Positions 1,993 to 38,863 of a DNA stretch of 42,310 nt are shown here, in pieces. Positions within the stretch are counted from its first letter, which is position 1, and each line of letters begins with the position of its first letter. The notes under the pieces were generated by a model. That model had not been told where the DNA came from and did no database searches. It saw only the letters and a program-made list of their open reading frames with translations. Location of the stretch: NCBI GenBank assembly GCA_030656075.1, contig JAUSOT010000096.1:1-42310 (forward strand). Direction: 5' to 3'. Both the position numbers and the translations under genes were made by a program. The stretch comes from Candidatus Cloacimonadales bacterium. GTDB lineage: Bacteria; Cloacimonadota; Cloacimonadia; Cloacimonadales; TCS61.

Positions 1993-2445
1993 ATGAGTAT
2001 GTTTGCGAGAGAATTAATAAAATTAAAATATTACGCTTTAGATAAAAAAAGTTGTCTAAACGAAATGGTAGAACTTTTATATGAGAAAGGCATAGTAAAA
2101 TTTCCTGAGAGATTTTTCAAGTCGATCATCGACCGTGAAAAATTGATGTCAACCGGCATTGGCAGGAAAGTAGCGATCCCTCATGCCCGTTCCGATGCGG
2201 TGGATGAATTGAAGATTGCCGTCTATCTGCTTGACAACGAACTGGAGTTCGACTCGATTGACGGCGAACCGGTGCAGATCATCTTCATGATCGCTGTGCC
2301 GGAAAGAATGAAAGAAGTATATATGAAGGTTCTGAGTGCGATCTCAAACTTTTTCCGCAAAGAAGAAAATCGCGACAGGATCTTGCATTGTACTTCAGTA
2401 GATGAACTTTGTACAATTTTAGAGGAAGTGAATGATGAAATTTAG
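1993..2445 (+). CDS. ptsN: PTS IIA domain protein, PtsN (nitrogen-type EIIA) like
   Basis: A 150-aa single-domain PTS EIIA of the fructose/mannitol/nitrogen type. The phosphorylatable His is His64 in GRKVAIPHARSD, preceded by the usual MSTGIG segment. Family members take phosphate from HPr/NPr. PtsN proteins act as regulators rather than sugar transporters. There is no IIB or IIC gene beside it, which favours a regulatory role. The C-terminus (ISNFFRKEENRDRIL...LCTILEE) is family-like. The last codons overlap the start of the PorV-like gene, so the two are probably translationally coupled. The ribosome site (GGGGAAAG) is modest, and ATG 1999 is an alternative start. Confidence 0.85.
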   Translation: MSMFARELIKLKYYALDKKSCLNEMVELLYEKGIVKFPERFFKSIIDREKLMSTGIGRKVAIPHARSDAVDELKIAVYLLDNELEFDSIDGEPVQIIFMIAVPERMKEVYMKVLSAISNFFRKEENRDRILHCTSVDELCTILEEVNDEI

Positions 2446-3376
2446 AATTCTATCATTACTGCTGTTAGCACCCTTATTTTTGATGGGAATTGATGAAGAT
2501 GCCGGGACGACCGGACTAACTTTTTTTAAAGTAAACTATTCAGCCAGAGCTGCTGCCATGGGAAATGCCTACACCGGGCTTTCCAATGATGCCAGTGCTG
2601 TGTTTTTTAATCCCGCCGGGCTGGTTCAGCTTTCCCGGATGGAAGCAACGGTGACCTATATGAGCTACCTGGATGGAATAAATTGCGGATCGATGGCTTA
2701 TGCCTATCCTCTTGATGAAAAAACCACTTTCGCTGTTTTCAGCAAAGTTCTTTCTGCCACCGAAGACAAAACACTGGTGGATGAATACGGGCAATATGGC
2801 GGAACGGACGGCAGTTTCGGTTTTTCAGATATCATTTTCGGAGTAAGCGTAGCTCGTTATCTTCTGGACATGCTGGATATGGGAATAAACGTAAAATATC
2901 TAAGGGAATCTATCGACGGACACACCGCCACTGCTGCTGCTATCGATGTTGGCATCATGCATCAAACCACCAGCAAAAACCTGAAAGTGGGAATTGCACT
3001 CAGAAATATAGGCCAGCAGCTTTCCTACTACACTTCCGAAGAATACGAAGAAAACCTGCCGACCATTGCCACGGTCGGTTTCAATCTGCATCCTAAAGAT
3101 AACCTTTATTTGACCGCTGATATTTATAAACCTTTGAATTATGATTACACCGGCAGGATCGGGATGGAATTTCAACCTCTTCCGTTGCTGGCTTTGCGTG
3201 CTGGTTATAAAACTAATGCCAAAGACTGGCAGGGCGGCAGTGATGACGCACTTTCCGGTATGTCTTTTGGCCTTGGCTTCGATCTGAGTGAATATAAGAT
3301 CAAATTGGATTATGCGGTGGTTTCCTACGGCGATCTGGGTTATGTGAACCAGATTACGCTGAATTATATATTTTAG
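2435..3376 (+). CDS. PorV/PorQ-like outer-membrane beta-barrel protein (copy 1)
   Basis: About 313 aa with a signal peptide (FRILSLLLLAPLFLMG). The family signature follows: TGLTFFKVNYSARAAAMGNAYTG then NDASAVFFNPAGL. The rest alternates as expected for a FadL-type/PorV barrel and ends with an aromatic final strand (NQITLNYIF). In Bacteroidetes PorV is the outer-membrane shuttle of the type IX secretion system, and PorQ-like relatives have less clear roles. ATG 2435 is preferred to ATG 2432 because AGAGGAAG then lies at normal distance. The gene overlaps the PtsN-like gene by 11 bases, and the CTD-tailed C25-like protein follows after a ~600-bp repeat-bearing gap. Whether it truly shuttles that protein is inference. 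Confidence 0.85.
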   Translation: MKFRILSLLLLAPLFLMGIDEDAGTTGLTFFKVNYSARAAAMGNAYTGLSNDASAVFFNPAGLVQLSRMEATVTYMSYLDGINCGSMAYAYPLDEKTTFAVFSKVLSATEDKTLVDEYGQYGGTDGSFGFSDIIFGVSVARYLLDMLDMGINVKYLRESIDGHTATAAAIDVGIMHQTTSKNLKVGIALRNIGQQLSYYTSEEYEENLPTIATVGFNLHPKDNLYLTADIYKPLNYDYTGRIGMEFQPLPLLALRAGYKTNAKDWQGGSDDALSGMSFGLGFDLSEYKIKLDYAVVSYGDLGYVNQITLNYIF

Positions 3377-3397
3377 AAGATAATTATACCTAAACCT

Positions 3398-3471
3398 TGC
3401 GAAGGTTAATTCCCTCTTGAGAGGGGTGCGGCTTTAGCCGTGGGGTGTGTACGACCTTAGCAAGGTTAATT
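3398..3471. repeat. Compound palindromic repeat
   Basis: It contains CCCTCTTGAGAGGG, then CGGCTTTAGCCG, bracketed by two related copies of CCTT-GC-AAGGTTAATT. It lies directly after the PorV-like gene and has no coding potential. Confidence 0.6.
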
Positions 3472-3712: not shown

Positions 3713-3993
3713 CAAAGCTGTCATTCCCGAGAAATCTGGAATCTATGAAAAAGGAAAACCCCAGTCAAGCTGAGGATGACAATAAGAGGGAAATAACATT
3801 CTACAAAGCCGGGTATATTTTACTATCTTTCTACAAAAAAAAAATCCTTGCAGAAAAAAATCCTTTTATTGAAATAGCATCCGAATAAGAAATTGATTTA
3901 ATTTTTCATTTTTACAATAAATATTTTGGGAGTTGCCGAACAGCCTTGATAGCTTTATTATCTTTGCAAATAATTTCAAAAAAGGGGAAAAAT
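3713..3993. other. AT-rich upstream region of the C25-like gene
   Basis: No gene is seen. It holds ATTCCCGAGAAATCTGGAATCT, a degenerate dispersed-repeat remnant, then strongly A/T-rich sequence leading to the AAAGGGGAAA ribosome site. A promoter is expected here, but none stands out clearly. Confidence 0.4.
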
Positions 3994-5823
3994 ATGGCAA
4001 AGCGACTTACAATCATAGGCATGATTCTCATGCTGATCAATCTCAATGCGATTAATTCTAAAAAACAGGAAAACATTGAAAGAGCGCGAACAGGGCAGCA
4101 TATTATAATCGCACCCGAAGAATTCTTAACTCAGGCAAACCTATTTGCAGATTTCTATTGGGATGAATTTCAAATTGAACGTGTAGTTGTCGATCAGCAG
4201 GACATATTTGATCAAATGAATGGCGGAGTTGCAGATCCGGATGCGATCCGAGAATACTTGATAGAATTCTTTGATGATCCTACTGTTTGGTTAGATAGTT
4301 CTGTTTTATTAATGGGAAGTGGAACTGAGGACTGGAACGTTCCTAATGATAAAAACCGGATTATTGTTACAGAATATTCTGATGATGAATTTGTATTATT
4401 AGATACAGATTATTACCCGGATGTTCCCATTGGCAGATTTCCAGCTCAGAATGAAGATCAATTAAATCTTATAATAAATAGGAACATTCAGTATATCACA
4501 AACCCCACAACTGGTTGGTGGCGTAATAAAATGCTCATGGTCGTGGATGATGAACATAAAGGAAATCAATTGGAAGGATTAACTTACAATAGTGGTTTAA
4601 ATCACACAGCCAGATCTCAGGATACAGCCGAAGTGTTATCTGATGCAGTTTGGCTAGACCGCGTGTTAGGAATTGAATATGAGATGTATCCAAATGGTAA
4701 TAAACCTGAAGCTGCTCAGGATGTTATCGATAAGGTAAATGAAGGCAGATTGATCTGGCATTATATTGGACACGGAAACGAAGATGTGTTGGGGGATGAG
4801 GAATATTTCAGAGCTTCTACTCAACTACAATTATTACAGAATGCAGATAAACTTCCTCTTTTTACTGCTGCATCTGTAGATGTAGGTGATTTTAGCTCTT
4901 TGGAATACGACTGTATGGCAGAACAATTTCTTACGTATGAATTTGGTGGAGCAATTGCTACTATTGCACCCAGGGGTTCGACTGATGGGCACTCAAACCA
5001 CCTTCTATTTCTGGCTTTTTTCCAAAATATGATCAATGATTATAATTATCTGGGCGCTGCTCTTCTTGATGCAAAACTTAATTGTTCTGCTTCGATTGGT
5101 AATAGCAAGCTTTACAACATATTAGGAGATCCGTTGCTTTTTGTGAATCCTCCGGATCGAGATGAAAACATTTCAATAGTTGGAAATCCAACAACTTTGT
5201 ATTATGAAGATGATGTTGAAATTTTCGGACAACTTCCGAACGCTAATTACACTTTTTCGGATTTCAAAGCATTTGAATCGGAATATGATTGCTATTATAC
5301 CAATACCTTGAATGGTGCTACTTACGAAGTGGATTACACTAAATTCGGTGAACCATATTTTGAAGAAGAAATTGCTATTTCCGGCGATTATTACGAAACT
5401 TCATTTTCCGTTACACCCGGTATTCAAACAGGTGAACAAGCCAGAATGATCAGCTACATTCATAGTGTTGAGGATGATTATGTTCAATACCTATATCCGA
5501 TTACTATTATGGAAGAAACGCAATCTCCGGACGATCCGATGTTGCCAAATGAATTATCAGCAAGTAATTACCCCAATCCCTTCAATCCTTCCACGACGAT
5601 TAGCTTTGCCTTACCGGAAGATACAAACGTAAGTCTTTCAATCTATAATTTAAAGGGTCAGCTTTTGAAACAACTTTTAGCTGAAAGCAAAATAGCAGGA
5701 ATGTATTCAGTGATGTGGGATGGTAAGGATTCTAAAAATACACAAGTTTCCAGTGGAGTTTATTTTTATCAATTGGAAACTCCGTCCAAAACGATAACTA
5801 AACGTATGTTGATGTTGAAGTGA
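3994..5823 (+). CDS. C25 (gingipain-like) peptidase homologue with C-terminal T9SS/FlgD-like domain; catalytic Cys position replaced
   Basis: The start is set at ATG 3994 (609 aa) behind AAAGGGGAAA. The ORF track began at an upstream TTG. Layout: signal peptide (LTIIGMILMLINLNA); a C25-type region with DVPIGRFPAQN, a Trp-containing WWRNKMLMVVDDE segment and the catalytic His motif HYIGHGNED (His260); then ASVDVGDF where family members normally have an ASC.VG.F-like motif. The nucleophile position is therefore Val (codon GTA at 4876-4878). The C-terminal ~85 residues form a sorting domain starting ASNYPNPFNPSTTISF and ending TKRMLMLK. From the family it would be a secreted or surface protein. 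The missing Cys suggests it is inactive as a protease or has another role such as binding. It lies next to a PorV-like gene and between two copies of repeat A. Confidence 0.82.
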   Translation: MAKRLTIIGMILMLINLNAINSKKQENIERARTGQHIIIAPEEFLTQANLFADFYWDEFQIERVVVDQQDIFDQMNGGVADPDAIREYLIEFFDDPTVWLDSSVLLMGSGTEDWNVPNDKNRIIVTEYSDDEFVLLDTDYYPDVPIGRFPAQNEDQLNLIINRNIQYITNPTTGWWRNKMLMVVDDEHKGNQLEGLTYNSGLNHTARSQDTAEVLSDAVWLDRVLGIEYEMYPNGNKPEAAQDVIDKVNEGRLIWHYIGHGNEDVLGDEEYFRASTQLQLLQNADKLPLFTAASVDVGDFSSLEYDCMAEQFLTYEFGGAIATIAPRGSTDGHSNHLLFLAFFQNMINDYNYLGAALLDAKLNCSASIGNSKLYNILGDPLLFVNPPDRDENISIVGNPTTLYYEDDVEIFGQLPNANYTFSDFKAFESEYDCYYTNTLNGATYEVDYTKFGEPYFEEEIAISGDYYETSFSVTPGIQTGEQARMISYIHSVEDDYVQYLYPITIMEETQSPDDPMLPNELSASNYPNPFNPSTTISFALPEDTNVSLSIYNLKGQLLKQLLAESKIAGMYSVMWDGKDSKNTQVSSGVYFYQLETPSKTITKRMLMLK

Positions 5824-12485: not shown

Positions 12486-15400
12486 ATGCAAAGAAAAATT
12501 CTTTTTTTGCTGATTGCGACGATGCTGATAAGTACTTCGTTATTTGCGGGTACTACAGGAAAACTGGCTGGTAAAGTTACCGATGATAAGGGAAATGCAA
12601 TCCCATTTGCACAAATCGTTTTAGAGGGCCCTGAAATTGGTGCAGAAACCAAGGAAAATGGTTATTATATTATTATCAATATTCCTCCGGGCGATTATAC
12701 TGTGGCTTGTATGCGTCAAAGTTTCCAAACTCAAAAATCCACAGGAGTTAAAATCAATCTCGATTTAACTACGATTCAAAACTTTACATTAGTTACCCAG
12801 GCTGTTGAGATTATTGGTATTAAAGTAACAGAAGCAGTTGTCGACAAGGTTCAACCAACTAAAACCGGTTCAGGACTGTCGATTTCTGCGGAAAGTATCG
12901 AAAATGTAGCTGTAACCGACCTGGCAGGAATCATTGCTATCCAGCCGGGTGTTTCTATTACTAACGGCGAAGTACACTTCCGGGGAGGTAGAGGCAACGA
13001 AGTATCATATACTGTGGATGGTATGTCAGTTTCCGACCCGGTGGACGGCGGAGCTGCCCTCACAGTCGATATGGATGCCGTTGCTTTTACTGACGTTAAA
13101 ACCGGTGGTTTCACTGCCGAATATGGCAACGCTCAATCCGGTATTGTGAACATCATCACAAGATCCGGTTCAGATGTTTATACCGGAAAGATCGAAGGAA
13201 TTTCCGATCATTTGATTCCCGATTCCTACAATTCCAACGAGGATGAAATCAAATTCACCTTGGGCGGTCCGGTCTTGGGTCCAATTGCGCCATCTCTAAA
13301 AAATAAATTCACTTTCTTTGTAAACGGTAGTGGCAGTTGGTATGATGGCAGGTATTATAAAGAATATAAAAATGATCCTGTTGAGGAGTTGAAATACCTG
13401 ACGATCCAGAACTTTGAACCGAACGATCCTTATGCCGGCAGAAAAGATTTTATCGGTTTTGATCGGGGTAACAGAAATTATAATGACTATAATGCAAATG
13501 CAAAATTTAAGTACGAAATAAATAAACTGGCAAATCTGACTTTCTCCGTCCGGGGCGATAAATCAATTTGGAAACCCTTTAATTATTCCTGGAAATATTC
13601 TCTTGATCATTATCAAGCTTTAGAAAACAATCAGATTCAATATGCTATGACCTATGATCATACTTTTAATTCGCAGACGAACCTGAAAGTGAAAGCCAGC
13701 TACTATCATAAAGATATTGTACGCGGTCCTATCGGTTTAAACCTGGACGACTTCTTTGTATTAGATGAAGCTAATTTCGATTCATTAGCTACCAATGACA
13801 TGAATGAATGTACAGGTATCGATTATCTTACTGATTTAGATAACCCTGGTGTAATTGGTGATGAGAGGATTTACGACTGGACGATCACGTCGGACGGAAT
13901 AGAAAAAGAGCTTAGTAAATATACAAATTTTGTAAGACCGGGCTCTATTTTTGGTTTCTTCCAGGATGACGAAAACAGCATTTTCAATCTACGTACCGAT
14001 TTTGAATACCAGCTCAACCAGATCCACGGTTTTAAAACCGGATTCGAATTGATTAAACACAACATTAAGAAAAACCAGGTAACCTCTCCCTGGGTTTTAG
14101 ACAAAACTCGTTACGATCGATATTTGTCTAATGCTACTCCAACCTACTGGTTTTATGATTTCTCTACCGCCAACGCAGATTCTATCGATATTTACGTAAA
14201 CCGTTACGACTTGGATATTAAACCAAATTCAACTGTTTACTATACGAATACTGCTCCGGGAGATGAACTGATCAATAAATACTTTAAAGCCAACACCTAT
14301 AACTTGGATGATTATTACGCAGCCACTAAAGCTGCTTCGGGAAATACGGATGGTTACGAAGCCAATCCTATCCAGGGTGCGTTTTATCTGCAGGATAAAA
14401 TGGAATGGGAAGGCATGATCGTTAATGCCGGCTTGCGTTTTGACTTCTGGTATCTCGGTGAAAGATATAAGATTATCCGAGATGGCGGAATCGCTTCCTG
14501 GGAAGATTTTGATAAAGATGAAAGATTCCAGATGATGGTTTCTCCCCGTCTTGGTGTTTCTCATCCCATTTCCGAAACTGCTGTGATGCACTTTGCTTAC
14601 AACTACCAGAACCAACTTCCGCAAATGCAATATATTTTCACCACACAAACCTGGGAAGATGCTATCACCAGCAACCAGAATATCGTAGTTGGTACTCCCG
14701 ATCTGAAACCTCAGATCACGGTTACCTATGAAGTTGGTTTGCAAAAGTCGTTCGGCGATTATTATGTAATGGATATTCAGGCGTACTACAAAAATATCTA
14801 TAATTATGTGAGTACGAAAGAAGTAGCTGATACATCAGACAGTAACGTTACATGGTATAAATATATTTCTGAAGACTATGGTAGCGCCCGAGGTATCGAC
14901 TTGAACCTGGAAAGAAGTTTATATGGCAATATCATGGGATCGGTTTCCTACTCTCTGGCCTGGGCTAATGGGAACAACTCCGATACGGTCATTCAAACCG
15001 AAACGACCAACCTGAGAGAATTTCCGCTGGATTGGGATATGCGTCACAACTTCAGCCTCAGCCTCACTTTCACCGTTCCCAAAGATGAAGATTTCACGAT
15101 TCCTTTCACAGATATCACAACGCCGAAATTCATCACCGATGATTTCTCTATGAACTTCTTTTATAACATTGCCAGCGGAACGCCCTATACACCAACAACT
15201 CAGGAAAATAGACCCATGGATACAAATAGTAAGCTGAAACCATTTACCGAAAATGCCAACTTCCGCGTTAGCAAAAAAATCTGGCTAAATGACAAGACGA
15301 ATTTTAAGGCATATTTCCTGGTCGAAAACCTGTTTAATCGCAGAAATGTTTATGGTGTCTATTCTTACACAGGTTCTCCGTATTATGATGGAGCCAATAT

Positions 15401-15530
15401 CAGCGAACCTAACATCAACCCGCCTTACACTGCCGAGGAAGTTCAATATGTTCACGACCTCTCCACTATGAATCCGGGAAATGTCAGCCAGGGTCGCACC
15501 TACACATTCGGTGTTTCTTTCAATTTCTAA
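12486..15530 (+). CDS. TonB-dependent outer-membrane receptor with N-terminal carboxypeptidase-regulatory-like domain
   Basis: 1014 aa. It has a signal peptide (ILFLLIATMLISTSLFAG), a CarboxypepD_reg-like beta-sandwich (GKLAGKVTDDKGNAIPFAQI to PPGDYTV), and a plug domain (VTDLAGIIAIQPGVSI, HFRGGRGNEVSYTVDGMSV, GFTAEYGNAQSGIVNIITRSG). A large beta-barrel follows, ending in RTYTFGVSFNF with the C-terminal Phe of outer-membrane proteins. It would import, or sense, an unknown large substrate using the proton motive force relayed by the ExbB/ExbD/TonB genes directly downstream. The substrate is not evident, and no SusD-like partner is present. ATG 12486 follows GGGGGAGA. First gene of the operon. 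Confidence 0.92.
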   Translation: MQRKILFLLIATMLISTSLFAGTTGKLAGKVTDDKGNAIPFAQIVLEGPEIGAETKENGYYIIINIPPGDYTVACMRQSFQTQKSTGVKINLDLTTIQNFTLVTQAVEIIGIKVTEAVVDKVQPTKTGSGLSISAESIENVAVTDLAGIIAIQPGVSITNGEVHFRGGRGNEVSYTVDGMSVSDPVDGGAALTVDMDAVAFTDVKTGGFTAEYGNAQSGIVNIITRSGSDVYTGKIEGISDHLIPDSYNSNEDEIKFTLGGPVLGPIAPSLKNKFTFFVNGSGSWYDGRYYKEYKNDPVEELKYLTIQNFEPNDPYAGRKDFIGFDRGNRNYNDYNANAKFKYEINKLANLTFSVRGDKSIWKPFNYSWKYSLDHYQALENNQIQYAMTYDHTFNSQTNLKVKASYYHKDIVRGPIGLNLDDFFVLDEANFDSLATNDMNECTGIDYLTDLDNPGVIGDERIYDWTITSDGIEKELSKYTNFVRPGSIFGFFQDDENSIFNLRTDFEYQLNQIHGFKTGFELIKHNIKKNQVTSPWVLDKTRYDRYLSNATPTYWFYDFSTANADSIDIYVNRYDLDIKPNSTVYYTNTAPGDELINKYFKANTYNLDDYYAATKAASGNTDGYEANPIQGAFYLQDKMEWEGMIVNAGLRFDFWYLGERYKIIRDGGIASWEDFDKDERFQMMVSPRLGVSHPISETAVMHFAYNYQNQLPQMQYIFTTQTWEDAITSNQNIVVGTPDLKPQITVTYEVGLQKSFGDYYVMDIQAYYKNIYNYVSTKEVADTSDSNVTWYKYISEDYGSARGIDLNLERSLYGNIMGSVSYSLAWANGNNSDTVIQTETTNLREFPLDWDMRHNFSLSLTFTVPKDEDFTIPFTDITTPKFITDDFSMNFFYNIASGTPYTPTTQENRPMDTNSKLKPFTENANFRVSKKIWLNDKTNFKAYFLVENLFNRRNVYGVYSYTGSPYYDGANISEPNINPPYTAEEVQYVHDLSTMNPGNVSQGRTYTFGVSFNF

Positions 15531-15568: not shown

Positions 15569-16381
15569 ATGAGGAAAAGATTCTTAACCGTATTATTATT
15601 AATGGCATTGGCAAATTTCTTGCTCACCGCTCTCGCCTATGCTCAAGAAACAGCCAAAGAAACCACAGCAACCGAAGAAGTGATGGAAGGAGAAGCCATT
15701 GCAGAAGTGCCATTTGAAGAATCACCTCAAACTGGCGGATTGGAGATGTTTGCACGCAAAATAGTCGGAAGCGGCTTAGTTGACCTGTTCATTCAAGGTG
15801 GATTCGTGATGTACCCGATTCTGCTTTTATTGATCTGGGGTATTGCTACTATTATATGGAAAATAATTTCTCTCAGCTATGCCAAGATCAATTTGAAAGA
15901 ATTTTTAGATAAGCTGGTACCGCTTCTGCAAGAAAAAAAATATGCTGAAGCTACTAAATTGTGCGAAGAAACAAAAGGACCTGTTTCTGCTATTATTCAT
16001 AATGGTTTGCTTAAAGTAGATAAAGGTATCGAAGCTGTGGAAAAAGCAGTGGAAAATGCCGGTGTTATTGAAATGGCTTTTTTGGAAAAAGGTTTCATTC
16101 CGCTTTCCACTACGATTAATCTGGCACCCATGTTCGGTTTCTTTGGAACGATCGTTGGGATGATCCGTGCTTTCCGCGATATTGCTGCCGCCGGTGAAGT
16201 TGAACCTACTATCGTGGCTACCGGTATCCAGATCGCTCTGATCACAACTGCCGCCGGTCTGGCTGTGGCTATTCCCATGCAGTTCTTCAACAATATGTTC
16301 CTGGGAATGGTGGATGGTCTGGTGATGGATATGCAAAGAGGTTCCGAGAAGCTTATTGAAACCCTTGTTGAACATAAATAG
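15569..16381 (+). CDS. exbB: ExbB/TolQ/MotA-family proton channel subunit
   Basis: 270 aa. It carries an N-terminal signal-like helix and an acidic linker (QETAKETTATEEVMEGEA), then the three-helix ExbB core: GGFVMYPILLLLIWGIATIIWKI, then NLAPMFGFFGTIVGMIRAF and IVATGIQIALITTAAGLAVAIPMQ. The last two helices contain the conserved GTVxGM-like and TTAAGL-type residues lining the ion path. In the inner membrane it forms the pentameric stator energising TonB. The extra N-terminal periplasmic extension is common in Bacteroidetes-type ExbB. AGGAGG precedes the start, 38 bp after the receptor gene. Adjacent ExbD and TonB genes support ExbB over TolQ. Confidence 0.93.
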   Translation: MRKRFLTVLLLMALANFLLTALAYAQETAKETTATEEVMEGEAIAEVPFEESPQTGGLEMFARKIVGSGLVDLFIQGGFVMYPILLLLIWGIATIIWKIISLSYAKINLKEFLDKLVPLLQEKKYAEATKLCEETKGPVSAIIHNGLLKVDKGIEAVEKAVENAGVIEMAFLEKGFIPLSTTINLAPMFGFFGTIVGMIRAFRDIAAAGEVEPTIVATGIQIALITTAAGLAVAIPMQFFNNMFLGMVDGLVMDMQRGSEKLIETLVEHK

Positions 16382-16390
16382 GGGGTATTG

Positions 16391-16807
16391 ATGCTTCGCA
16401 GAAAAAGAAAAGATATGGGAGGAATTCCCACCGCATCTATGTCGGATGTGGCTTTTCTGCTGCTTGTCTTCTTTCTATCAACTACCAAGTTCGATATCAA
16501 AAAAGGTCTGGGTATAAATCTTCCCGCTGCCAGTGCTGATACTACAACTAAAGTGAAACTCGATCCGAAGAATATCACCAAGGTCTGGATCGATGCGGAA
16601 GGTATGATCACCCTGAAAACTTTTGATACTGAAGAACAGATCAGCATCAATCAACTGGAAGGCAAGATCAGAAAAATCGTTTCCGGCAATTCGGAAATGG
16701 TGATTTCTCTGAAAACTGATAGAAAAAGTAAATACCAGAATATGGTTGTTGCACTTGATAAACTTCAAGCAGCAGGTGCAGAAAAAATATCGTTATCGAC
16801 GAATTAG
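16391..16807 (+). CDS. exbD: ExbD/TolR-family protein (first copy)
   Basis: 138 aa from ATG 16391. The track began at an upstream TTG, but GGGGGT fits the ATG better. A basic cytoplasmic N-terminus is followed by GGIPTASMSDVAFLLLVFFLSTTKF, the single transmembrane helix with the essential ExbD Asp in SMSD. A periplasmic domain of ~95 residues comes next. It partners the ExbB pentamer. The gene starts 9 bp after exbB and is followed 9 bp later by a second exbD. Confidence 0.93.
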   Translation: MLRRKRKDMGGIPTASMSDVAFLLLVFFLSTTKFDIKKGLGINLPAASADTTTKVKLDPKNITKVWIDAEGMITLKTFDTEEQISINQLEGKIRKIVSGNSEMVISLKTDRKSKYQNMVVALDKLQAAGAEKISLSTN

Positions 16808-16816: not shown

Positions 16817-17224
16817 ATGGCCAAGATAAAGAAAGCTGCAAGACCGGAGACGCTGATCCCGACTGCCTCTATGTCCGACATTGCCTTCCTGCTACTCCTT
16901 TTCTTCATGGTTTCCACCGTGTTTGTGAGAGAAAAAGGTTTGAAGGTAAGATTACCCCGGGCAGAAACCATTCAAAAAATCCCGCGCAGTCATTCCGCTA
17001 CTATTTATGTGGATAGGAACGGTACTATTTCCATTGATGATATGGTCGTTTCCATTCCCGATGTACAGTGGGTGATGCAGAAAAAATTATTGGAAGATTT
17101 CAATGTGATAGCTTGCTTCAGAACAGACAGAGATGCCAGCTACGGTTATATGTCAGATATTTTAAATCGACTTCGCGAGGCTGGAACCTTGCGGGTTTCC
17201 TTTGAAGCTAAGCTGAAAAGGTAG
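16817..17224 (+). CDS. exbD: ExbD/TolR-family protein (second copy)
   Basis: 135 aa. It has the same plan as the first copy (LIPTASMSDIAFLLLLFFMVSTVFV, with the membrane Asp), but the periplasmic domain differs strongly (REKGLKVRLPRAETIQKIP). Two adjacent, diverged ExbD genes are usual in FCB-group Ton clusters and may form a heterodimer inside the ExbB pentamer (inference). The ribosome site is AGGAAGG. Its stop codon directly precedes the tonB ribosome site. Confidence 0.92.
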   Translation: MAKIKKAARPETLIPTASMSDIAFLLLLFFMVSTVFVREKGLKVRLPRAETIQKIPRSHSATIYVDRNGTISIDDMVVSIPDVQWVMQKKLLEDFNVIACFRTDRDASYGYMSDILNRLREAGTLRVSFEAKLKR

Positions 17225-22006: not shown

Positions 22007-24130
22007 ATGAAAAAACTCTTAGTTTTTTTGATTGTGTTAGTATTTGCGACTTGGATGTTCGCAGATTTAATGCAAGATGTTCCACGCGAGGCCGCAACCT
22101 TTAATGGACATGTTACACCTAGAGTTCTGGAAAACTCTACGAGACTCGTTCCCGAGTGGGAATTTTATCGTGATCCTATTGGATTGATCACAAACTACTA
22201 TGATTACATGCCTGGTAGTTATAATAGTACTCCAGTACAGATTCAACCGGACGCAGTAGGCGGTGGAATTTATATCACATTCCATGCCAGAGAAACAGCT
22301 GCTTCAACCCGCAGGGTATATTATGCCTACATCGATGCTGCTGGTAATTTAACTAACATTGCCACCATCAGTTCTACCGACCTGCATGAAGGTTATTCAG
22401 GCGTTGATATCGATCCGGAAACCGGCGACCCGTTTGCCGCCTGGCATGTTAACATCATTCCTGCTTCTGCACATTTGGAAGTTGTTGGTACTTATGACCT
22501 TTATCATCTGGGCAGCCCCGGTTTGTGGAAAACACCCTGGGTCATTATTGAAGACACAAATCCGAACTTCCCCAATGGTACGACTGATGAATTCATTTGG
22601 CCTTATGTTTATATCGGCCCATCCCCGGATGCCGCTAAAAGAAGAGTTTACGTTGTTGCTAATAACTCCGACTCTACACCTACCGGTAGCCCTTCAGAAA
22701 ATCAATTCTGCGCTTATGCAGACTTTGATGTAAATGATTTCAATGCCCAGTCAGAACTTGATTGGTCATATTTCACACTTCCGGAAATGAATGACTGGCA
22801 CAATGGTATTCCTCAGTGGGAACGTCCCAGCGGCGGTATGGCAGTATCTGAAGACGGAAAAGTAGCTTTCATGGGATATGTTATCACTGATGGTACTACT
22901 TCTACTACACCAGACAGATACTACGCATTTGTTAACGACAACTACGGTGAAGGTGATTTCGATTTTGTTGAATTAAGCTGCGAATATGACATTCCTAATC
23001 CGCAAAACCAGGACGGAACTTATCGCTTCTTGGATGCAACTACTCTTCAACCGCTAGATCTTTACATGGAACCTTATCTTTGCAACCATCAGAACATTCT
23101 CTTTGTTGATGGCGGCACCAAACTTAAATTCATGGGCAACATGAACATGATGATCCGTCCTGCTTCCTGGTATCCAACTCTTCCTATGATGTATCCCAAA
23201 ATGTACACTTATGATATTGCTACTCAAGAATTCAGCTTCGTTGACATGTGGATCACCGGTGCAAATCCTTCTGATGACGTTCCGATGCTGCCCTGGGATT
23301 TGGATGAAGACGGTGTGGTTGACGAATACGATCCAGACGGATACGTTATGTGGGTTGACGGTTGGCCAATCTATCATTATGATAATGCTGTAGCCTTCCA
23401 TGAAAACACCATGAAATTATGCAAGAATGAAGAAAAGGGCTGGGTTGCTGCTGTTTGGTCGGAAGGTTTGAAATCTCGTTATGGAAATGAACCAGATCTT
23501 TTCCCCGGTTATGAAGATTGGGCAAATTATCCTGAAGTTGCAGTAGCTATTTCTAATGATATGGGCGAAACCTGGCAGGAAACAATTATCTTCAATGCCA
23601 AAGCTGATGATGATAATTATGCTCCCGAACTTGACGGCATGATCCCCTGCTACATTTATCCAGGCGATAAGATCGAAGACCTGGGTGACGGCTATGGAAT
23701 GCTGCACCTGTTCTTCCTGGATGACAACAGCTACGGTTCATTTATTCAGGCACACGGCGAAAACCTGGGCGGCACACAAACTTATGCAGCCCTGAAAATC
23801 AACTTTGACACCATTCCCCCTGGTACCGAAAACAATACAGTTACTCCAGCTATCGCTGATCTTGGCCAAAACTATCCGAATCCTTTCAATCCTGTAACGA
23901 ACATTGCTTATAATATCCAGCAAGCCGGTGATGTAACAATCGAAGTTTTCAACGTGAAAGGACAAAAAGTAACTACCCTGGTTGATGGCTATCAAACAGC
24001 TGGCGACCACATGGCTACCTGGAACGGAAAAGATGTAAACAATAGTTCTGTATCTAGTGGCGTTTACTTCTACAAAATGAAAACCGGCGGAAGATATACT
24101 TCTACCAAGAAAATGATCTTGCTCAAATAA
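22007..24130 (+). CDS. Secreted protein with T9SS type A/FlgD-like C-terminal domain
   Basis: 707 aa. The signal peptide is LLVFLIVLVFATWMFA. The central ~550 residues are rich in Trp, Tyr, Asp and Pro, with segments (GGGIYITFHARE, SGVDIDPETGDPFAAWHV, GGMAVSEDGKVAFMGYV, AVAISNDMGETWQE) that look like the repeated blades of a beta-propeller/sialidase-type fold (inference). The tail is a clear sorting domain: ADLGQNYPNPFNPVTNIAYN, then EVFNVKGQKVTTLV, SSGVYFYKM, TKKMILLK. Substrate or enzymatic residues are not recognisable. It is the last gene of the operon, followed by a strong terminator. Confidence 0.85.
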   Translation: MKKLLVFLIVLVFATWMFADLMQDVPREAATFNGHVTPRVLENSTRLVPEWEFYRDPIGLITNYYDYMPGSYNSTPVQIQPDAVGGGIYITFHARETAASTRRVYYAYIDAAGNLTNIATISSTDLHEGYSGVDIDPETGDPFAAWHVNIIPASAHLEVVGTYDLYHLGSPGLWKTPWVIIEDTNPNFPNGTTDEFIWPYVYIGPSPDAAKRRVYVVANNSDSTPTGSPSENQFCAYADFDVNDFNAQSELDWSYFTLPEMNDWHNGIPQWERPSGGMAVSEDGKVAFMGYVITDGTTSTTPDRYYAFVNDNYGEGDFDFVELSCEYDIPNPQNQDGTYRFLDATTLQPLDLYMEPYLCNHQNILFVDGGTKLKFMGNMNMMIRPASWYPTLPMMYPKMYTYDIATQEFSFVDMWITGANPSDDVPMLPWDLDEDGVVDEYDPDGYVMWVDGWPIYHYDNAVAFHENTMKLCKNEEKGWVAAVWSEGLKSRYGNEPDLFPGYEDWANYPEVAVAISNDMGETWQETIIFNAKADDDNYAPELDGMIPCYIYPGDKIEDLGDGYGMLHLFFLDDNSYGSFIQAHGENLGGTQTYAALKINFDTIPPGTENNTVTPAIADLGQNYPNPFNPVTNIAYNIQQAGDVTIEVFNVKGQKVTTLVDGYQTAGDHMATWNGKDVNNSSVSSGVYFYKMKTGGRYTSTKKMILLK

Positions 24131-32011: not shown

Positions 32012-32686
32012 TTAAAATTTATATGATAAAGTTAAAGTCGGATTCATTTCCGAATTAAGTTCCATTCCCATTTCCAGGCGGTTAATTTTGTTGGTCAGCA
32101 GCAGAGAATTGATCGCGCTGACAAGATGGTTGGCAATGATAATACCGGAGATACCACTGATATAATTGCTATATTCCGTGATGCGTTTCCGCATGATGGC
32201 ATAATCGTGTTTTCGGTTTTTATCATCCCAATTCCAGTAGAAATTTTCGGAGTAGGAATTTGCCTGGATATAAGCGGATTGGGCCGCCTGATCATCAGGA
32301 TATTTTGCCATGGCAGTTTCCACAATATGCGCATTATATCCACCTGTTTCATAACCGTAATTGACGTATTTGGAAAGGTGATAATAATAATCTTCGTTGT
32401 AATCGCCTTGCGGATCGATGTGCGCATATTTGATGGCATAATTGATCGAAGCTTTATCTTTCAGTTTGGTTTCTTCCTTGAAGTAGAACGTGGTGCTCCA
32501 CATCATAAATTCCGCTGCCAGGAAAACATAACCGGAATTTTTCTGCATGGAAAGTTCACCCCAGCCGGGGATCAGGGCAGATTTTAAAAATTGTTTTCCG
32601 GGATTGATTTGCTGCGAAAACAGAAATGATGATAAAAACATTATCATAATTACTGTTAGAATGATTTTAGTTGATATTTTTTTCAA
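32012..32686 (-). CDS. DUF5683-like envelope protein, paralogue 1
   Basis: 224 aa. A signal peptide (IILTVIMIMFLSSFLFS) is followed by the family-type motif KQFLKSALIPGWGELSMQK, a hydrophobic stretch (GYVFLAAEFMMWSTTFYF), a Tyr/Asp-rich middle and a second hydrophobic patch (GISGIIIANHLVSAINSLLL). It ends with LTLSYKF, like the last strand of an outer-membrane barrel. Function is unknown. Two homologues lie directly upstream in the operon. Confidence 0.72.
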   Translation of the reverse strand: MKKISTKIILTVIMIMFLSSFLFSQQINPGKQFLKSALIPGWGELSMQKNSGYVFLAAEFMMWSTTFYFKEETKLKDKASINYAIKYAHIDPQGDYNEDYYYHLSKYVNYGYETGGYNAHIVETAMAKYPDDQAAQSAYIQANSYSENFYWNWDDKNRKHDYAIMRKRITEYSNYISGISGIIIANHLVSAINSLLLTNKINRLEMGMELNSEMNPTLTLSYKF

Positions 32687-32706
32687 AATGCTTCCTCTCC
32701 GGTCAG

Positions 32707-33378
32707 TTAGAATTTATACTCATAATTGAGGAAAAAACCACCTTTCGTAAAATCAGGGGTTACGCTCAGTTGTCCTAATTTTTTATTTTCATTATTAAAT
32801 CTTTTGGCTGAAATAGCAGCATCGACCAGGCTGACAAAGCGATTGACTATGACTGCCGCAAAAGCAAATTTCATATAAATTTCCATGTCCTGTTTATCAC
32901 GCCTTAATGAGCGGAATTTAAACCAGTTTTTCTCAGTTTCCCAATCCCAGGCTTTATCCTCCGGGACGAGGTAATTGTTCAGATAATCCTCATAAGCAAC
33001 CGGGTCGTTTTTGTAGATAAGGTAATAATTCCTGGCATCCCGAATAATGCTTTCATTATACAAAGCGCTGCTGCGATAGTCCTGCAGAATCTGATAATAC
33101 CAGTCTTTGCTGTCTTTGGGAGTTCCCGCGATTGAATAGGCGAACTGCTTGTAAGAATTCAAAGCCCATTGTCTTTCATTTTTCAAACGGAAGTAAGTGA
33201 AAATTGTGGCAGCCTCAATGGTGAGGAAAACAGCAGCTTTATTATAGTTCTGAGTGTAGATTTCTCCTAATCCCGGAACCAGGGCAGAAAAAACGATCGC
33301 TTTGCGGACGGATTTCTGCTGGGCAGAAAGATCCATCAACATTAACAGCAAAACAATTATCAGAAAACTTCTTTTCAT
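32707..33378 (-). CDS. DUF5683-like envelope protein, paralogue 2
   Basis: 223 aa with a signal peptide (FLIIVLLLMLMDLSA). The shared motif is VRKAIVFSALVPGLGEIYTQ, then AAVFLTIEAATIFTYFRLK, and near the end AFAAVIVNRFVSLVDAAI and the terminal GGFFLNYEYKF. Layout and length match paralogue 1, so the two are tandem duplicates that have diverged widely. Function is unknown. The ~190-bp gap upstream of its start carries a hairpin array. Confidence 0.72.
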   Translation of the reverse strand: MKRSFLIIVLLLMLMDLSAQQKSVRKAIVFSALVPGLGEIYTQNYNKAAVFLTIEAATIFTYFRLKNERQWALNSYKQFAYSIAGTPKDSKDWYYQILQDYRSSALYNESIIRDARNYYLIYKNDPVAYEDYLNNYLVPEDKAWDWETEKNWFKFRSLRRDKQDMEIYMKFAFAAVIVNRFVSLVDAAISAKRFNNENKKLGQLSVTPDFTKGGFFLNYEYKF

Positions 33379-33413
33379 GTGATTAAATTCCTATTTTTCT
33401 TATTAACCCCTCT

Positions 33414-33516
33414 GTTCTGCACTAATTTTCGAAAAATAAGTGCAGAACCTCTCCCCTTAACAGGGGAGAAATTAGGATTCCTTATTCTCCCCCTAAATAG
33501 GGGGACACAGGGGGTT
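33414..33516. repeat. Array of three hairpins, including a 37-nt AACCCCCT-type repeat
   Basis: From left: GTTCTGCACT/AGTGCAGAAC (10-bp perfect stem, five further inner pairs), CTCCCCT-TAAC-AGGGGAG, and 33480-33516. The last is the reverse complement of the 10085-10121 repeat apart from the loop. They fill the only large gap within the minus-strand operon, between DUF5683 paralogues 3 and 2. A role as RNA processing or attenuation elements is possible but unproven. Confidence 0.75.
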
Positions 33517-33570
33517 AGTGTCATTTCAATCATGCTCCAGTATGTTTTCTCAGTCCTGGCTGTCATTATA

Positions 33571-34434
33571 TCAGAACCTTTTGGAAACAAAGAATGCTGC
33601 CGAAAGCTGATTATTGACCAGAATCGGGCCAACTTTGAATTGCAGGTGATTTTCAGCGTATTGCCTGTTATAATGCTTCGTTAAACGAACAGCATCCAAG
33701 GCTGCCAGAATATGATTGGCAATGATGCCGAAGCTGTAAAATCTGCCTTTGTCATAATATCCTTCCGCTGACTGTCTCATATCGATATAAATCTGGCGAT
33801 ATCCGCTGTACATGCCGTCCTTTGCATCATAGAGGCTACTTGTCATATCATTATAATACAAGGAATCAGAATTGGCTGGGCCTGTTAATCCATAAACCTT
33901 GCTCACGCCGAGTGAATCTTCAACCCAATGCCAGTTTGGAGTGGTGTAATTGCCGATGTCATCAATGGCATAAATATTGAACCAGTCGATCCAGCCAAAA
34001 ATATATTTGGGGTATTTACCGATATCTTCATAGAAATGCTGGGTATTTGTATCATCCAGCCGGAAATGACTATCATAAAATCCATTATCGAAATGCTCCG
34101 GATCATCATCCTCAATAATTGTATTTTGAGCATATTCCTGGTAAGCCCGGTTATAATACTCATCCGCATAATTCTGGTAATCCTTTTCTGTTTGCAGACC
34201 TTTGTTGTAGTAATGGATATAACCGATCCATAAACCTACTTCCAGAACTGGAAAAATATAGGTCGTAAAACTGGATTTATCGGCATAAAACTGGCCGGCA
34301 CCAGGAAAAAGCGAAGAAAGCAGCATGGCTTTTTTAACGGATTTCTGATCATAAGTGATTCCGGTTTTTTCCTGGGCAAAGATTACAACAATTAGATTTA
34401 ACATTAGTACGATCAAAATGATTTTTTTAAACAT
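33571..34434 (-). CDS. DUF5683-like envelope protein, paralogue 3
   Basis: 287 aa, longer than its two neighbours because of a Tyr/Asp-rich insertion (YADEYYNRAYQEYAQN onward). The signal peptide is IILIVLMLNLIVVIFA. The motif is SVKKAMLLSSLFPGAGQFYADKS, then VLEVGLWIGYIHYY, FGIIANHILAALDAVRL, and a terminal SAAFFVSKRF ending in Phe. The PGxGQ/E-Y motif is the family mark. Cellular role is unknown. The gene lies 10 bp after the M6 protease gene, and the hairpin array follows it. Confidence 0.72.
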   Translation of the reverse strand: MFKKIILIVLMLNLIVVIFAQEKTGITYDQKSVKKAMLLSSLFPGAGQFYADKSSFTTYIFPVLEVGLWIGYIHYYNKGLQTEKDYQNYADEYYNRAYQEYAQNTIIEDDDPEHFDNGFYDSHFRLDDTNTQHFYEDIGKYPKYIFGWIDWFNIYAIDDIGNYTTPNWHWVEDSLGVSKVYGLTGPANSDSLYYNDMTSSLYDAKDGMYSGYRQIYIDMRQSAEGYYDKGRFYSFGIIANHILAALDAVRLTKHYNRQYAENHLQFKVGPILVNNQLSAAFFVSKRF

Positions 34435-34444: not shown

Positions 34445-37400
34445 TTAGTTTACAACTGCAAAAGGAACTTTTTTTGTTTTACCGCCGCTTTTGATAACGG
34501 CGAAATATACGCCGGGGGCTATTTTACTCGTATTCCAGCGGATATCCTGGGCGTTCGTTTCTACCCGGTTCACCTCACGATCGTGCAAAAGATTGCCGGC
34601 AATATCGAAGATCTTGAGTTTGATATCAGAGTCTGCATTCAGCACTTTGAATCTTACTTCACCGGTACCGGCAGGATTGGGAAAAGCATAAGCTGAGAAA
34701 CTGCCGTCACTTCCTGCTGCGGGTGAAATGGAACCGTTATAGATGGAATATTTCTGGTTTCGAAAACCATTCCAGATAAGAGGATTTTGCACAATATCTA
34801 CAGAGTAGCTGGAAAAAAGATTATGCTGGTTATCGGCATAAATATAATACAAATATTCTTTGTCATCATCCCAGTAATATTGATCGGAAACATCGTTGCG
34901 AGCCCAGTAAAATGAATATTTCAAGCTTTGTTTGGCATTTGTATTCACCGCCACAAAACCATTGTGGGCTTCTTCCAGGACGATCACGGTTTCATCCGGA
35001 AAGGCGATGATGCGCGGATAAGCAAAAGCTTTGATACTGCGATTTTCCAGATAGCCGGGAAAGCCGGAAGCCAAAGTACCATCTAAAGTTATGGCAAATA
35101 CTCTATCACCTGCACCGAAAGCAAGATACACATTTCCATCATCGAAAATATCGCCCAGAGCCAGTTGAGAAGGCTGAGCGGAAGTGTAGGGTGAAAGCCG
35201 GAAAATCTCATTGGCTACGCCATTTTGGATTTTATAAATATCTCCGTCCTTATTTTGCATAAAAGTGGCATTATTGGCATAATCCGCTTCATCCACAAAG
35301 CTGACGGGGCGATAGACGGGAGAATAATTTTCGATTTCGATTTCTTGAATAGAAGCTCCGGAGAGGGAAATATCAGGAATCAGATAGATTTTTCCTGCTG
35401 TTGCTGCGATGAGATTTACGCCGTCGTAAGAACAAACAGCGCCATGAATGTCAGTTTGTTGATTCTGAGGGATGAAATGAAGTGATTCATCAGTGGGAAT
35501 AACCAGAGTTGGACTAACCCAGTTTTCGATAAAAATGGGTGCATCAGATAAATTTGATCCGAACTGGGAAATGGATATTGTGTCGATCGTGAAAGATGTA
35601 GATTCATTTTGATCTGAAATTAAATATTCCGATTCTCCATCCAGATTGGAATCAATTGGAATAATTGGGAAATCAGAATTACCACTATAATTTAGACTCG
35701 CTCCGAAATTATTTGCCCAGTTATCGGCGATGAGAGAATAGAAATTTATCTCATTTTCCGTCAGAATGGGGAAGGTGGGAAATCCCAGGGAAGTTCCTAT
35801 CTGACCGATAGCTTTCAGGGAATCGAATTCGGCGATTTTTTCGGTCACATCAAAAGAACGCACTCCAAAATGGAAGGACATTGCTCTTTTCTGGAACAGA
35901 TCGACAGAATAACTGCTGATATCGTAGATCGAAAAGATGGACGGATCACCGTCGTTGGTGTTCAGAGCTGGTGAGGAGATTGAAGAAAGTTCATCGCTGA
36001 AAAGCATGCCGATAAATTCCAAATCACCGCTGGAATTCAGGATGTATTCATCATCCCAGCCTTGAAACGAGCCAGCTTCATCGATAATTGGCATGTATTT
36101 AAAAAATGGTTCGTAGGCCGTTCCCTGCCAAAACATGGAATATGGATTGCCAATGTCGTCGATGTTATCTGCTTCGACTATTTTCACTGCTCGATGGGAA
36201 TGCCTTATATTCACTGTGTTATTGATATAATTATCGTTTTCTTCCAAGATTGCATTGTCTATGTGCCAGACGAGAAGTCCACCGCCGAAATAGAAATATT
36301 TATCAAGGATGGCATCGTAGTGATCAAATCCGGGCAACAGGAAATCGTATTCATAATTATTTTCGGAACTGGGATTCGGATCAGGATAAGTCGGATAAAG
36401 TATCACCCGACCGTCATTGGAAGTCATCACCACATTTCCTCCATCGCCATCGGGATCGATCTGACGGTTTTCGATGAGGAGATATTCGGTGTCATTTAAT
36501 GGAACTTTGACAATATAGGCAGTCGAATCATTTAAAGCATTTGCATCAAATGGCTTGCTGGAAGGTAAAACTGTGATCGATTTTGACAGATCAAATTCGG
36601 TGATATCTTTTAAAATACCGCGCGCTCTAAAATCATCTTCAAAAGCAATAATGCGGGACCAAGAACCCGGCAATGCCGGATACACTCCCTCCAGATAATA
36701 TGTCAGGTCACCATCGGAAGCTCCAATCAGCGGTGCACCTCCGCTGTCCATAATATCGTAATAACCAACCTGTGGTGAATAATTCATCGTATTATAAAGG
36801 TCTGCAAAACCGAGAGAGTGACCAAATTCATGCACCATCACTGCATTGATGAAACCGTAATTGAAAATATATGTTTCACCGTTTTCTTCATCGATCTCAA
36901 TATCCTGCGTAATAGTCTCCGGCACATTGCAGGCATGATCGATCATAATCCCGTCATCAACGTAAACTTCTTTTCCGGTTCCTACTTTAATGAAAAAAGA
37001 GGGAATGTCGGCGGGTGAATCTCCATTTACATCATGCTGCCAGTCCGAGCCGGCATGAATGATCATAAAGTGGTCATACAAACTGAAATTGATTAAAGTA
37101 TCCGGATCGGCAGTGATAAATGCGTCCTGAAAATATTCTTCAAAACGGGAAACCATCAATTCGCTGGAAGCTCCGGGTGGATTGTAGTAGCTCATTTCAT
37201 GCGGCAAAGTATAGGCGTCAAATTGCGTAATCGGTGCTTGCGGATAAATATCGGAATCCACATTGAATGAACCATAACTGACAGCAATATAATATTGCCG
37301 TAATGCTTCCAATTGATCTCCAAAAAAGAGAAGATCGTGGGGTGGTCTGCCAAAGGTGAACGGATAATCACCAGGATATTGAATAAATTTACCGGTGCCG

Positions 37401-37636
37401 GTAGTTTGCGGATCATTGTCTTCTTGAAAATCTACCAGCAAAACGAGCAGCTTGTTTGCTTCCCTGCTTGTTCTATCCAGCTTTCCCGTTCCCGAAAGAA
37501 GATGCTCAATCGGATGTATTTTCTTTTCCTGTTTTCGGTTTATCCGGGTTTTCTCAAGATGCAATTTCTCAGCAAATGATAGTCTGGGTATAAGCATACC
37601 CAATACTATCAAGAACGATAGTATGAGTCTTTTCAT
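34445..37636 (-). CDS. Secreted M6-family (immune inhibitor A-like) metalloprotease with C-terminal sorting domain
   Basis: 1063 aa. The signal peptide is LILSFLIVLGMLIPRLSFA. The catalytic domain has KLLVLLVDFQED near the start of the mature part and the zinc motif VMVHEFGHSLGFADLYN (HExxH near residue 269, with the third ligand further on), typical of M6 peptidases. A long region rich in beta strands (LTENEINFYSLIADNWAN, WVSPTLVIPTDES) looks propeller-like. The tail AYAFPNPAGTGEVRFKV, KIFDIAGNLLHDREV, IAPGVYFAVI is a FlgD/T9SS-type sorting domain. It is likely secreted or anchored and degrades extracellular protein, fitting an amino-acid-fermenting life style. It is preceded 9 bp upstream by a PorV-like gene. 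Confidence 0.9.
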   Translation of the reverse strand: MKRLILSFLIVLGMLIPRLSFAEKLHLEKTRINRKQEKKIHPIEHLLSGTGKLDRTSREANKLLVLLVDFQEDNDPQTTGTGKFIQYPGDYPFTFGRPPHDLLFFGDQLEALRQYYIAVSYGSFNVDSDIYPQAPITQFDAYTLPHEMSYYNPPGASSELMVSRFEEYFQDAFITADPDTLINFSLYDHFMIIHAGSDWQHDVNGDSPADIPSFFIKVGTGKEVYVDDGIMIDHACNVPETITQDIEIDEENGETYIFNYGFINAVMVHEFGHSLGFADLYNTMNYSPQVGYYDIMDSGGAPLIGASDGDLTYYLEGVYPALPGSWSRIIAFEDDFRARGILKDITEFDLSKSITVLPSSKPFDANALNDSTAYIVKVPLNDTEYLLIENRQIDPDGDGGNVVMTSNDGRVILYPTYPDPNPSSENNYEYDFLLPGFDHYDAILDKYFYFGGGLLVWHIDNAILEENDNYINNTVNIRHSHRAVKIVEADNIDDIGNPYSMFWQGTAYEPFFKYMPIIDEAGSFQGWDDEYILNSSGDLEFIGMLFSDELSSISSPALNTNDGDPSIFSIYDISSYSVDLFQKRAMSFHFGVRSFDVTEKIAEFDSLKAIGQIGTSLGFPTFPILTENEINFYSLIADNWANNFGASLNYSGNSDFPIIPIDSNLDGESEYLISDQNESTSFTIDTISISQFGSNLSDAPIFIENWVSPTLVIPTDESLHFIPQNQQTDIHGAVCSYDGVNLIAATAGKIYLIPDISLSGASIQEIEIENYSPVYRPVSFVDEADYANNATFMQNKDGDIYKIQNGVANEIFRLSPYTSAQPSQLALGDIFDDGNVYLAFGAGDRVFAITLDGTLASGFPGYLENRSIKAFAYPRIIAFPDETVIVLEEAHNGFVAVNTNAKQSLKYSFYWARNDVSDQYYWDDDKEYLYYIYADNQHNLFSSYSVDIVQNPLIWNGFRNQKYSIYNGSISPAAGSDGSFSAYAFPNPAGTGEVRFKVLNADSDIKLKIFDIAGNLLHDREVNRVETNAQDIRWNTSKIAPGVYFAVIKSGGKTKKVPFAVVN

Positions 37637-37645
37637 AAGCTTTGT

Positions 37646-38863
37646 TTAGAATTCTAATTTAAGGGAAAGGGTTTGATTATATTGTTGTAATTCCCCACCG
37701 GGCTGGAAGGCATAATCCACGCCGGCAAGATAAGATTTATTTATCAGGTAATGCACTCCGAAACCAAAAGAGAAGCCTTCGATATCACCCATTCTATCGG
37801 AAAAATAACCGCCACGCAGGGAGAGTAGATCAAGATAAACATATTCCATGCCGATGCCCCAGATAACTTCCTGCACTTCAATGGAGTTCACGAAATTATT
37901 GATGGAAGCAAAATCATTGATTTTTTCACCGGCGTCGTTGGTTTGCATGTTGAAATCGTCTGTCCAGGCGGTGAAAATTCTTTCATAGAGCGGATCACCA
38001 TTTGCCAGCAATTTATTCATATCGGCATTGACGGTGAAGCGGTTATACTTCGATTCGAGAAAGCGATAAGAAAATCCCATGCGCCAGTTCATCGGCAGTG
38101 GATCTGCCTGGGATTGGTTGATGTAGGTGATATTAGGTCCAATGTTTTGAAAGTTCAAGCCGAAATCAAGTTTATCGACGGGAAGGCTGAAACCTGAATA
38201 ATTAGCTTTTCCTGATCCGACCAAATCGGCAAAACCGTTATAGAGACAGAGAATTCCATTATAAGGAGAAACCATGATCTGACCAAAATCAACGCCTTTG
38301 TGTTTCACGCCAAGATCAAAAGCATAAGCAATTCCCTGACCGTTTACATCGGCTTCCGTATCACCGGTTCCTTCCGGAGCAAGGTCACTGTAAATGAACT
38401 TAAAGGTAATTCCCAATCCGGTTTTCGGACTTGATTGATAACCATAAGAAAAAGCCATCGAAACGTCGTAGCTGCTGAATTCACCTAAAACTTCGCCAGT
38501 TTCACCGTCGGTTCTTTCCTGGGTTCCATAAGCCATATAAGTAGCATTAATTCCGAGGTTTCCCACATCTTCCATATAGGTGTTTCCAGCTAAATGAAAG
38601 AAATAAATATCGTTGAAGACTTCACCCAGCCAGTTACAATATTGAGTAGCAAATTGATTTTTCCTGTTGAATGCCATGGCGCCTGGATTCCAATATCCGG
38701 CAAAAGCATCATCGGCCTGAGCGACATAAGCCTGTGCCATTGCGTTGGCCCTGGATCCGGGTTCGATCAGTAAATATATGACTGCTCCCTCTGAAATTGC
38801 GTGTATGGTAACGGGTATAAAAATCAGAGCAGCAGCTATGATTAACAAGATTCTATATCTCAT
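37646..38863 (-). CDS. PorV/PorQ-like outer-membrane protein (copy 3)
   Basis: 405 aa with a signal peptide (ILLIIAAALIFIPVTIHA). The family signature IEPGSRANAMAQAYVAQADDAFAGYWNPGAMAF is clear. It is followed by barrel-like alternation (GLGITFKFIYSDL, RGGYFSDRMGDIEGFSFGFG) and a C-terminal SLKLEF. It is longer than the other two copies. It is the first gene of the minus-strand operon and directly precedes the CTD-tailed M6 protease, the expected arrangement for an export partner (inference). Confidence 0.87.
   Translation of the reverse strand: MRYRILLIIAAALIFIPVTIHAISEGAVIYLLIEPGSRANAMAQAYVAQADDAFAGYWNPGAMAFNRKNQFATQYCNWLGEVFNDIYFFHLAGNTYMEDVGNLGINATYMAYGTQERTDGETGEVLGEFSSYDVSMAFSYGYQSSPKTGLGITFKFIYSDLAPEGTGDTEADVNGQGIAYAFDLGVKHKGVDFGQIMVSPYNGILCLYNGFADLVGSGKANYSGFSLPVDKLDFGLNFQNIGPNITYINQSQADPLPMNWRMGFSYRFLESKYNRFTVNADMNKLLANGDPLYERIFTAWTDDFNMQTNDAGEKINDFASINNFVNSIEVQEVIWGIGMEYVYLDLLSLRGGYFSDRMGDIEGFSFGFGVHYLINKSYLAGVDYAFQPGGELQQYNQTLSLKLEF

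Follow-up and report, generated by a model that had tools for sequence, protein, structure and literature searches.

PorV-family barrels encoded in conserved operons with particular CTD proteins in Candidatus Cloacimonadota, and their possible role as surface anchors

The window analysed here is a stretch of 42,310 nucleotides (GenBank contig JAUSOT010000096.1) that corresponds to contig C46 of a Cloacimonadota genome (3.23 Mb, 94% complete), and it carries three genes for barrels of the PorV/PorQ family of the type IX secretion system, each of them near a gene for a secreted protein that ends in a C-terminal domain (CTD). These calls had been made in a first-pass annotation of the same DNA, and they hold when Pfam, NCBIfam and PorZ CTD models are applied. 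The barrels and their neighbours are the following.

2432..3376, plus strand: PorV_A, PorV/PorQ-family barrel nearest PorQ (PF19572, 32 bits; NF033709, 172 bits; PorQ model NF033711, 141 bits, cut-off 220)
3946..5823, plus strand: C25-like protein with a type A CTD, PorU-related (PF01364, 216 bits; Por_Secre_tail over cut-off)
17891..20923, plus strand: SecB_up, conserved 1010-aa secreted protein encoded upstream of PorV_B as its partner, with a diverged CTD in about the last 120 residues (NF052228, fold)
20942..21967, plus strand: PorV_B, PorV/PorQ-family barrel (Pfam PorV, 42.5 bits; NF033709, 198 bits)
21536..21631, plus strand: PorV_B loop rich in Asp, containing two DxDxDG motifs, putatively extracellular (conserved columns, strand order of the model)
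22007..24130, plus strand: secreted partner of PorV_B on the downstream side, with a type A CTD (PF18962, 42 bits)
34445..37636, minus strand: M6-type metalloprotease with an intact HExxH and a type A CTD, partner of PorV_C (PF05547, PF18962)
37646..38863, minus strand: PorV_C, barrel closest to canonical PorV (PF19572, 83.7 bits; NF033709, 219 bits; PorV model NF033710, 160 bits, cut-off 250)

All three barrels score above the family cut-offs of Pfam PorV (PF19572, 27 bits) and NCBIfam PorV_fam (NF033709, 90 bits), and none reaches the equivalog cut-off for PorV or for PorQ, the best scores being those given above for PorV_C and PorV_A, respectively. Judged by these profiles they are members of the PorV/PorQ family, which we leave unassigned as orthologues of either protein. 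The sequence of PorV_B matches the PorV chain of the SprA translocon (6h3i_F, E 1.6e-20), and its model fold matches 8gl6_F and 6h3i_F. The window genome has only four PorV-family genes that reach the family cut-off, and in the tree the four barrels, A to D, form four separate clades, each with full support. PorV_D lies outside the window, on contig C210, and is the barrel of a fourth conserved pair.

Gene order was compared in loci fetched from related genomes (8 for A, 14 for B, 14 for C and 8 for D, window genome included), and pairs common by descent were counted as conservation, not as independent repeats. The M6 gene follows PorV_C in 14/14 genomes, with its HExxH zinc motif intact in every one, and in the window the two genes are separated by 9 bp. 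PorV_D is accompanied by at least one of two partners in all eight genomes, namely an M6-like protein without HExxH flanking one side (7/8) and a large protein (about 1390 aa) with a CTD flanking the other (7/8); the latter is a subtilase in the one member tested. In the M6-like partner L094:11084-14236 (G000:C210) the residues THNFGHQ stand in place of the HExxH that the window M6 keeps.

PorV_B belongs to a longer operon, which opens with a cluster (12486-17869) that is conserved in relatives:

12486..15530, plus strand: TonB-dependent receptor that opens the operon, Oar-like in layout, with CarboxypepD_reg at its N-terminus (PF13620, PF07715)
15569..16381, plus strand: ExbB/TolQ-type proton channel (PF01618; TolQ/ExbB models below cut-off)
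16388..16807, plus strand: ExbD-type protein 1 (position and layout; homologues at the same place in relatives)
16817..17224, plus strand: ExbD-type protein 2 (TolR/ExbD models below cut-off; conserved)
17225..17869, plus strand: TonB-type protein (PF03544, 70 bits; TIGR01352 over cut-off)

The full order runs TonB receptor-ExbB-ExbD-ExbD-TonB-1010-aa CTD protein-PorV_B-CTD protein, with gaps of 18 bp upstream and 39 bp downstream of PorV_B. To follow this arrangement, 80 named loci selected by the PorV_B sequence alone were used, with counts taken only where the contig extends far enough. A homologue of the 1010-aa protein (hereafter 17891) is present upstream of PorV_B in 77/77 testable loci and a CTD-type gene downstream in 60/66, while ExbD/TonB genes occur at 65/65 and the TonB receptor at 43/45. 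Nearly all named contigs with this operon are Candidatus Cloacimonadota; L163 and L168, which are named Armatimonadota and carry it at about 70% identity to that of the window, are probably mislabelled metagenome bins.

Pfam does not detect the CTD of 17891, but the model for the CTD region of PorZ (NF052228) matches the final 126 residues of the protein (23 bits, E 2e-5), and in a fold search the AlphaFold model of this CTD protein matches PorZ (5m11) and PorU (6za2). The body of the protein gives weak fold matches only, to sugar-active enzymes (TM-score about 0.14). The DxDxDG motifs of PorV_B recur in similar form in 17891 and are absent from PorV_A, PorV_C and PorV_D. From the model, in a part of low confidence, we infer that the Asp-rich loop faces the outside of the cell, and a calcium-dependent contact may be entertained as no more than a possibility. 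The co-phylogeny of PorV_B and its partners, proposed as a check by the first-pass annotation, gave high raw distance correlations (0.76-0.90), but the partial correlations are weak once the TonB genes and the receptor are accounted for (0.14-0.36, n=27 loci), and for this reason it was not counted as proof of contact.

Enrichment across a whole genome was assessed in G032, a complete single-contig relative, in which a CTD gene lies on the same strand within 300 bp of 5/8 PorV-family genes, against about 7% expected (a rough null on gene order, with 2000 genes assumed, gives P about 6e-5; 1800-2200 genes were assumed overall, and the extents of some genes were set by hand). A null of random placement (1.3%) was rejected as too lenient. 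The pairs of G032 include a PorU2-like/PorV2-like pair, and a sixth PorV-family gene lies directly after a 477-aa protein with a CTD-like end below threshold. Also among these pairs is the PorV-family barrel L226 (G032:C1:1881517-1882473), directly downstream of a 6463-aa open frame ending in a type A CTD. The CTDs adjacent to PorV genes have somewhat lower type A scores than the remaining CTDs (P 0.035), a weak difference obtained with a test picked after the ranking had been seen. A stronger P value, in which undetected CTDs were set to zero, was not relied on, and the low scores of the partner CTDs on our own CTD profile were unused as evidence since that profile was built from top-scoring CTDs.

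The possible occurrence of type IX systems in Cloacimonadota is mentioned in a review (PMC11285876). Sov/SprA (TIGR04189) was found in 8/8 genomes, with 481 bits in the window genome against a cut-off of 200, and PorU homologues likewise in 8/8, three of them over the cut-off; that of the window genome is a fragment on contig C122 which retains the catalytic Cys. CTD genes number at least 150 in the window genome and 67 in G032. Together, the Sov/SprA and PorU homologues and these large sets of type A CTD proteins indicate, at the level of sequence, that Cloacimonadota have a type IX secretion system. The first-pass annotation had asked for a genome-wide count of PorV-like genes beside CTD genes and for a search for sov (sprA) and porU, and had held that its proposal would fail if such enrichment were lacking or if the genome carried no core component; the enrichment is present in G032, and homologues of both Sov/SprA and PorU are present in the genome.

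The repeated pairing described in that annotation stands for PorV_B and PorV_C, whose operons are fixed in the phylum, but not for PorV_A and the C25-like protein. In relatives PorV_A lies beside the gene for EIIA of the phosphotransferase system and/or glyS, with no CTD partner, and a C25 gene next to it was found in the window genome only, with none in the seven relatives whose A locus was read, including the same-genus G001. The two genes are 569 bp apart, their adjacency is incidental, and the A-C25 combination was rejected as a dedicated pair because it is unconserved. By alignment, the C25-like protein has its catalytic Cys replaced by Val (AASV instead of AASC) and retains the His-bearing GHG motif, and it is probably an inactive relative. 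It is close to the PorU homologues of Cloacimonadota, but shorter. As a sortase it was rejected, given the lost catalytic Cys and the better PorU homologue on contig C122.

We hypothesize that the linked barrels are surface-anchor pairs similar to PorU-PorV and PorZ-PorQ, rather than one shuttle per cargo, and we give this reading a probability of about 0.55. The four PorV/PorQ-family barrels, A to D, are old, and the genes of B, C and D each stand beside those of one or two particular CTD proteins; the neighbour would be exported through Sov, its CTD would be bound by the adjoining barrel, probably uncleaved, and both would remain as a stable surface complex. The predicted complexes are PorV_C with the M6 protease, PorV_D with the HExxH-less M6-like protein and the large CTD protein, and PorV_B with the 1010-aa protein beside a TonB-energised receptor, while the ordinary cargo would rely on a common barrel, for which PorV_C is the likeliest candidate. 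What the analysis shows is homology, the conservation of gene order, Sov and PorU homologues and atypical CTDs in the partners; physical pairing, non-cleavage and the identity of the general shuttle barrel are what we infer from it. Anchor pairs are favoured because of the PorU/PorV and PorZ/PorQ precedent, the somewhat lower scores of the adjacent CTDs and the likeness of the 17891 CTD to PorZ and PorU. The conservation of operons B, C and D, the full support of the four barrel clades, the enrichment in G032, the excess of CTD genes over barrels and the match of PorV_B to PorV of the SprA translocon also speak for this reading. Several points weigh against this proposal: the CTDs of the M6 protease and of 22007 are typical by Pfam and no sequence mark of non-cleavage was seen, PorU itself was not seen beside a barrel in this analysis, operon conservation can reflect co-regulation without contact, and the putative barrel-partner binding and non-cleavage rest on sequence and gene order.

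The precedent is the attachment complex of Porphyromonas gingivalis, in which PorV anchors PorU and PorQ anchors PorZ as sub-complexes (PMC5562754), each of them a large CTD protein kept on the cell surface by its own barrel of the PorV/PorQ family. The partners described here likewise possess a CTD, by Pfam in 22007 and 34445 and by the PorZ model and fold in 17891. They differ in being M6, subtilase-type and other proteins encoded in an operon with the barrel, the PorU homologues being elsewhere, and their binding is predicted. A second parallel is offered by the Type B CTDs of Flavobacterium johnsoniae, which have cognate PorP/SprF barrels often encoded alongside, whereas all type A CTDs are stated to use PorV (PMC12618676). 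As there, a shuttle-like barrel gene stands directly beside the gene of a secreted CTD protein, but the Type B combination of a TIGR04131 CTD with a PorP/SprF barrel was not found in the window, where CTDs match type A and barrels the PorV family; the Cloacimonadota pairs combine a Type B-style layout with the PorV family. In the light of both precedents, the premise of the first-pass annotation that in Bacteroidetes one PorV generally serves many cargos and is not encoded with them is only partly right. Among NCBIfam models, the PorU2-like/PorV2-like pair of G032 resembles PorU2 (NF052324) and PorV2 (NF052325), with scores below the curated cut-offs, and the M6 partners of PorV_C and PorV_D match T9SSA_dep_M6i (NF052323) over most of their length, also below the curated cut-off, although unlike that family the M6 of pair C keeps HExxH. 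Finally, BamG-BamH is an example of a FadL-fold barrel to which a single large protein is bound at the surface (PMC12611786), a layout that PorV_B would share, but BamH is a lipoprotein and the match of PorV_B to the BamG model is weak (27 bits against a cut-off of 250).

The first-pass annotation had favoured dedicated shuttle-cargo sets, in which each barrel would extract only its neighbour's CTD from Sov and provide a parallel export lane. The conserved linkage and the example of the Type B pairs, which operate in this manner with PorP/SprF (PMC12618676), agree with this, yet we consider it doubtful: the partners are single conserved proteins and not cargo classes, and PorV_A has no conserved partner. 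Since the window genome has four barrels for at least 150 CTD genes, the secretome as a whole cannot be served by linked barrels that each carry a single cargo, and the CTD proteins without a barrel of their own must share one; dedicated sets as the general export route, and a one-to-one shuttle for all cargo, are rejected by these numbers. Chance adjacency in a CTD-rich genome would account for PorV_A and the C25-like gene, with their wide gap and their occurrence in a single genome among those compared, but for B, C and D it is already refuted by conserved gene order, and gaps of 9-39 bp on the same strand, conservation throughout the phylum and the enrichment in G032 make it barely credible as a general account.

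Shared regulation alone, with barrels and CTD genes in one type IX regulon and no specific contact, is conceivable for envelope genes of one pathway, the more so as contact is not visible in sequence; it is nevertheless very improbable, since the partner is always the same orthologue and not any CTD gene. It is also unlikely that operon B serves mainly in TonB-dependent uptake, with PorV_B and the 1010-aa protein at the surface in the manner of SusC and SusD, except that a type IX barrel would do the holding, and that it has no role in the secretion of other proteins. The presence of the TonB receptor, ExbB, ExbD, ExbD and TonB genes upstream throughout the phylum fits such a role, as does the likeness of the 17891 body to sugar-active enzymes, but those fold matches are weak and pairs C and D would be left unexplained.

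The energy source of this system is a matter for speculation. The GldL and GldN models gave no match in the 8 genomes at E<=1, and for GldM there was a single match at chance level (E 0.05) in the 8 and none at E<=0.001 in 75; for all three the searches had no positive control genome, so that absence is not proven, the more so as the GldN search and the 75-genome GldM search returned zero matches anywhere. Diverged motor proteins are possible in Cloacimonadota. Because these models gave no significant match, the TonB module beside PorV_B becomes a speculative power source: a type IX system without GldL/GldM, in which ExbB-ExbD-ExbD-TonB would power the export or surface assembly of CTD proteins, is an idea that we hold to be improbable. 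ExbB/TolQ/MotA-type genes number two or three per genome in seven genomes, one of them in operon B. TonB-driven export by this operon is conceivable because the Oar TonB-dependent protein secretion of Myxococcus xanthus also needs ExbB, ExbD and TonB (PMC6434023). In both, genes for TonB, ExbB and two ExbD proteins accompany a TonB receptor that is extended at its N-terminus, but the Oar system is without PorV or CTD, and a secretion role of the Cloacimonadota operon is putative.

In the current view a single PorV receives the whole set of type A CTD proteins, and cognate barrels exist for Type B CTDs only. PorV paralogues locked to particular type A partners would be natural matched pairs in which to ask how a barrel discriminates between CTDs and what decides anchoring versus release, and a system with Sov and PorU homologues and no recognisable GldL, GldM or GldN raises the question of how it is powered. 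No description of PorV-CTD operons or of a TonB-PorV operon in Cloacimonadota was found in the literature searched, which left most subscription journals outside.

Two further regions of the window deserve mention. Downstream of PorV_C and the M6 gene there are usually three small proteins, kept in most relatives:

32012..34434, minus strand: three small proteins, two of them DUF5683-type (PF18935)

Next to these, 28917-31989 holds two tandem aromatic amino acid lyase genes, of which relatives retain one or both.

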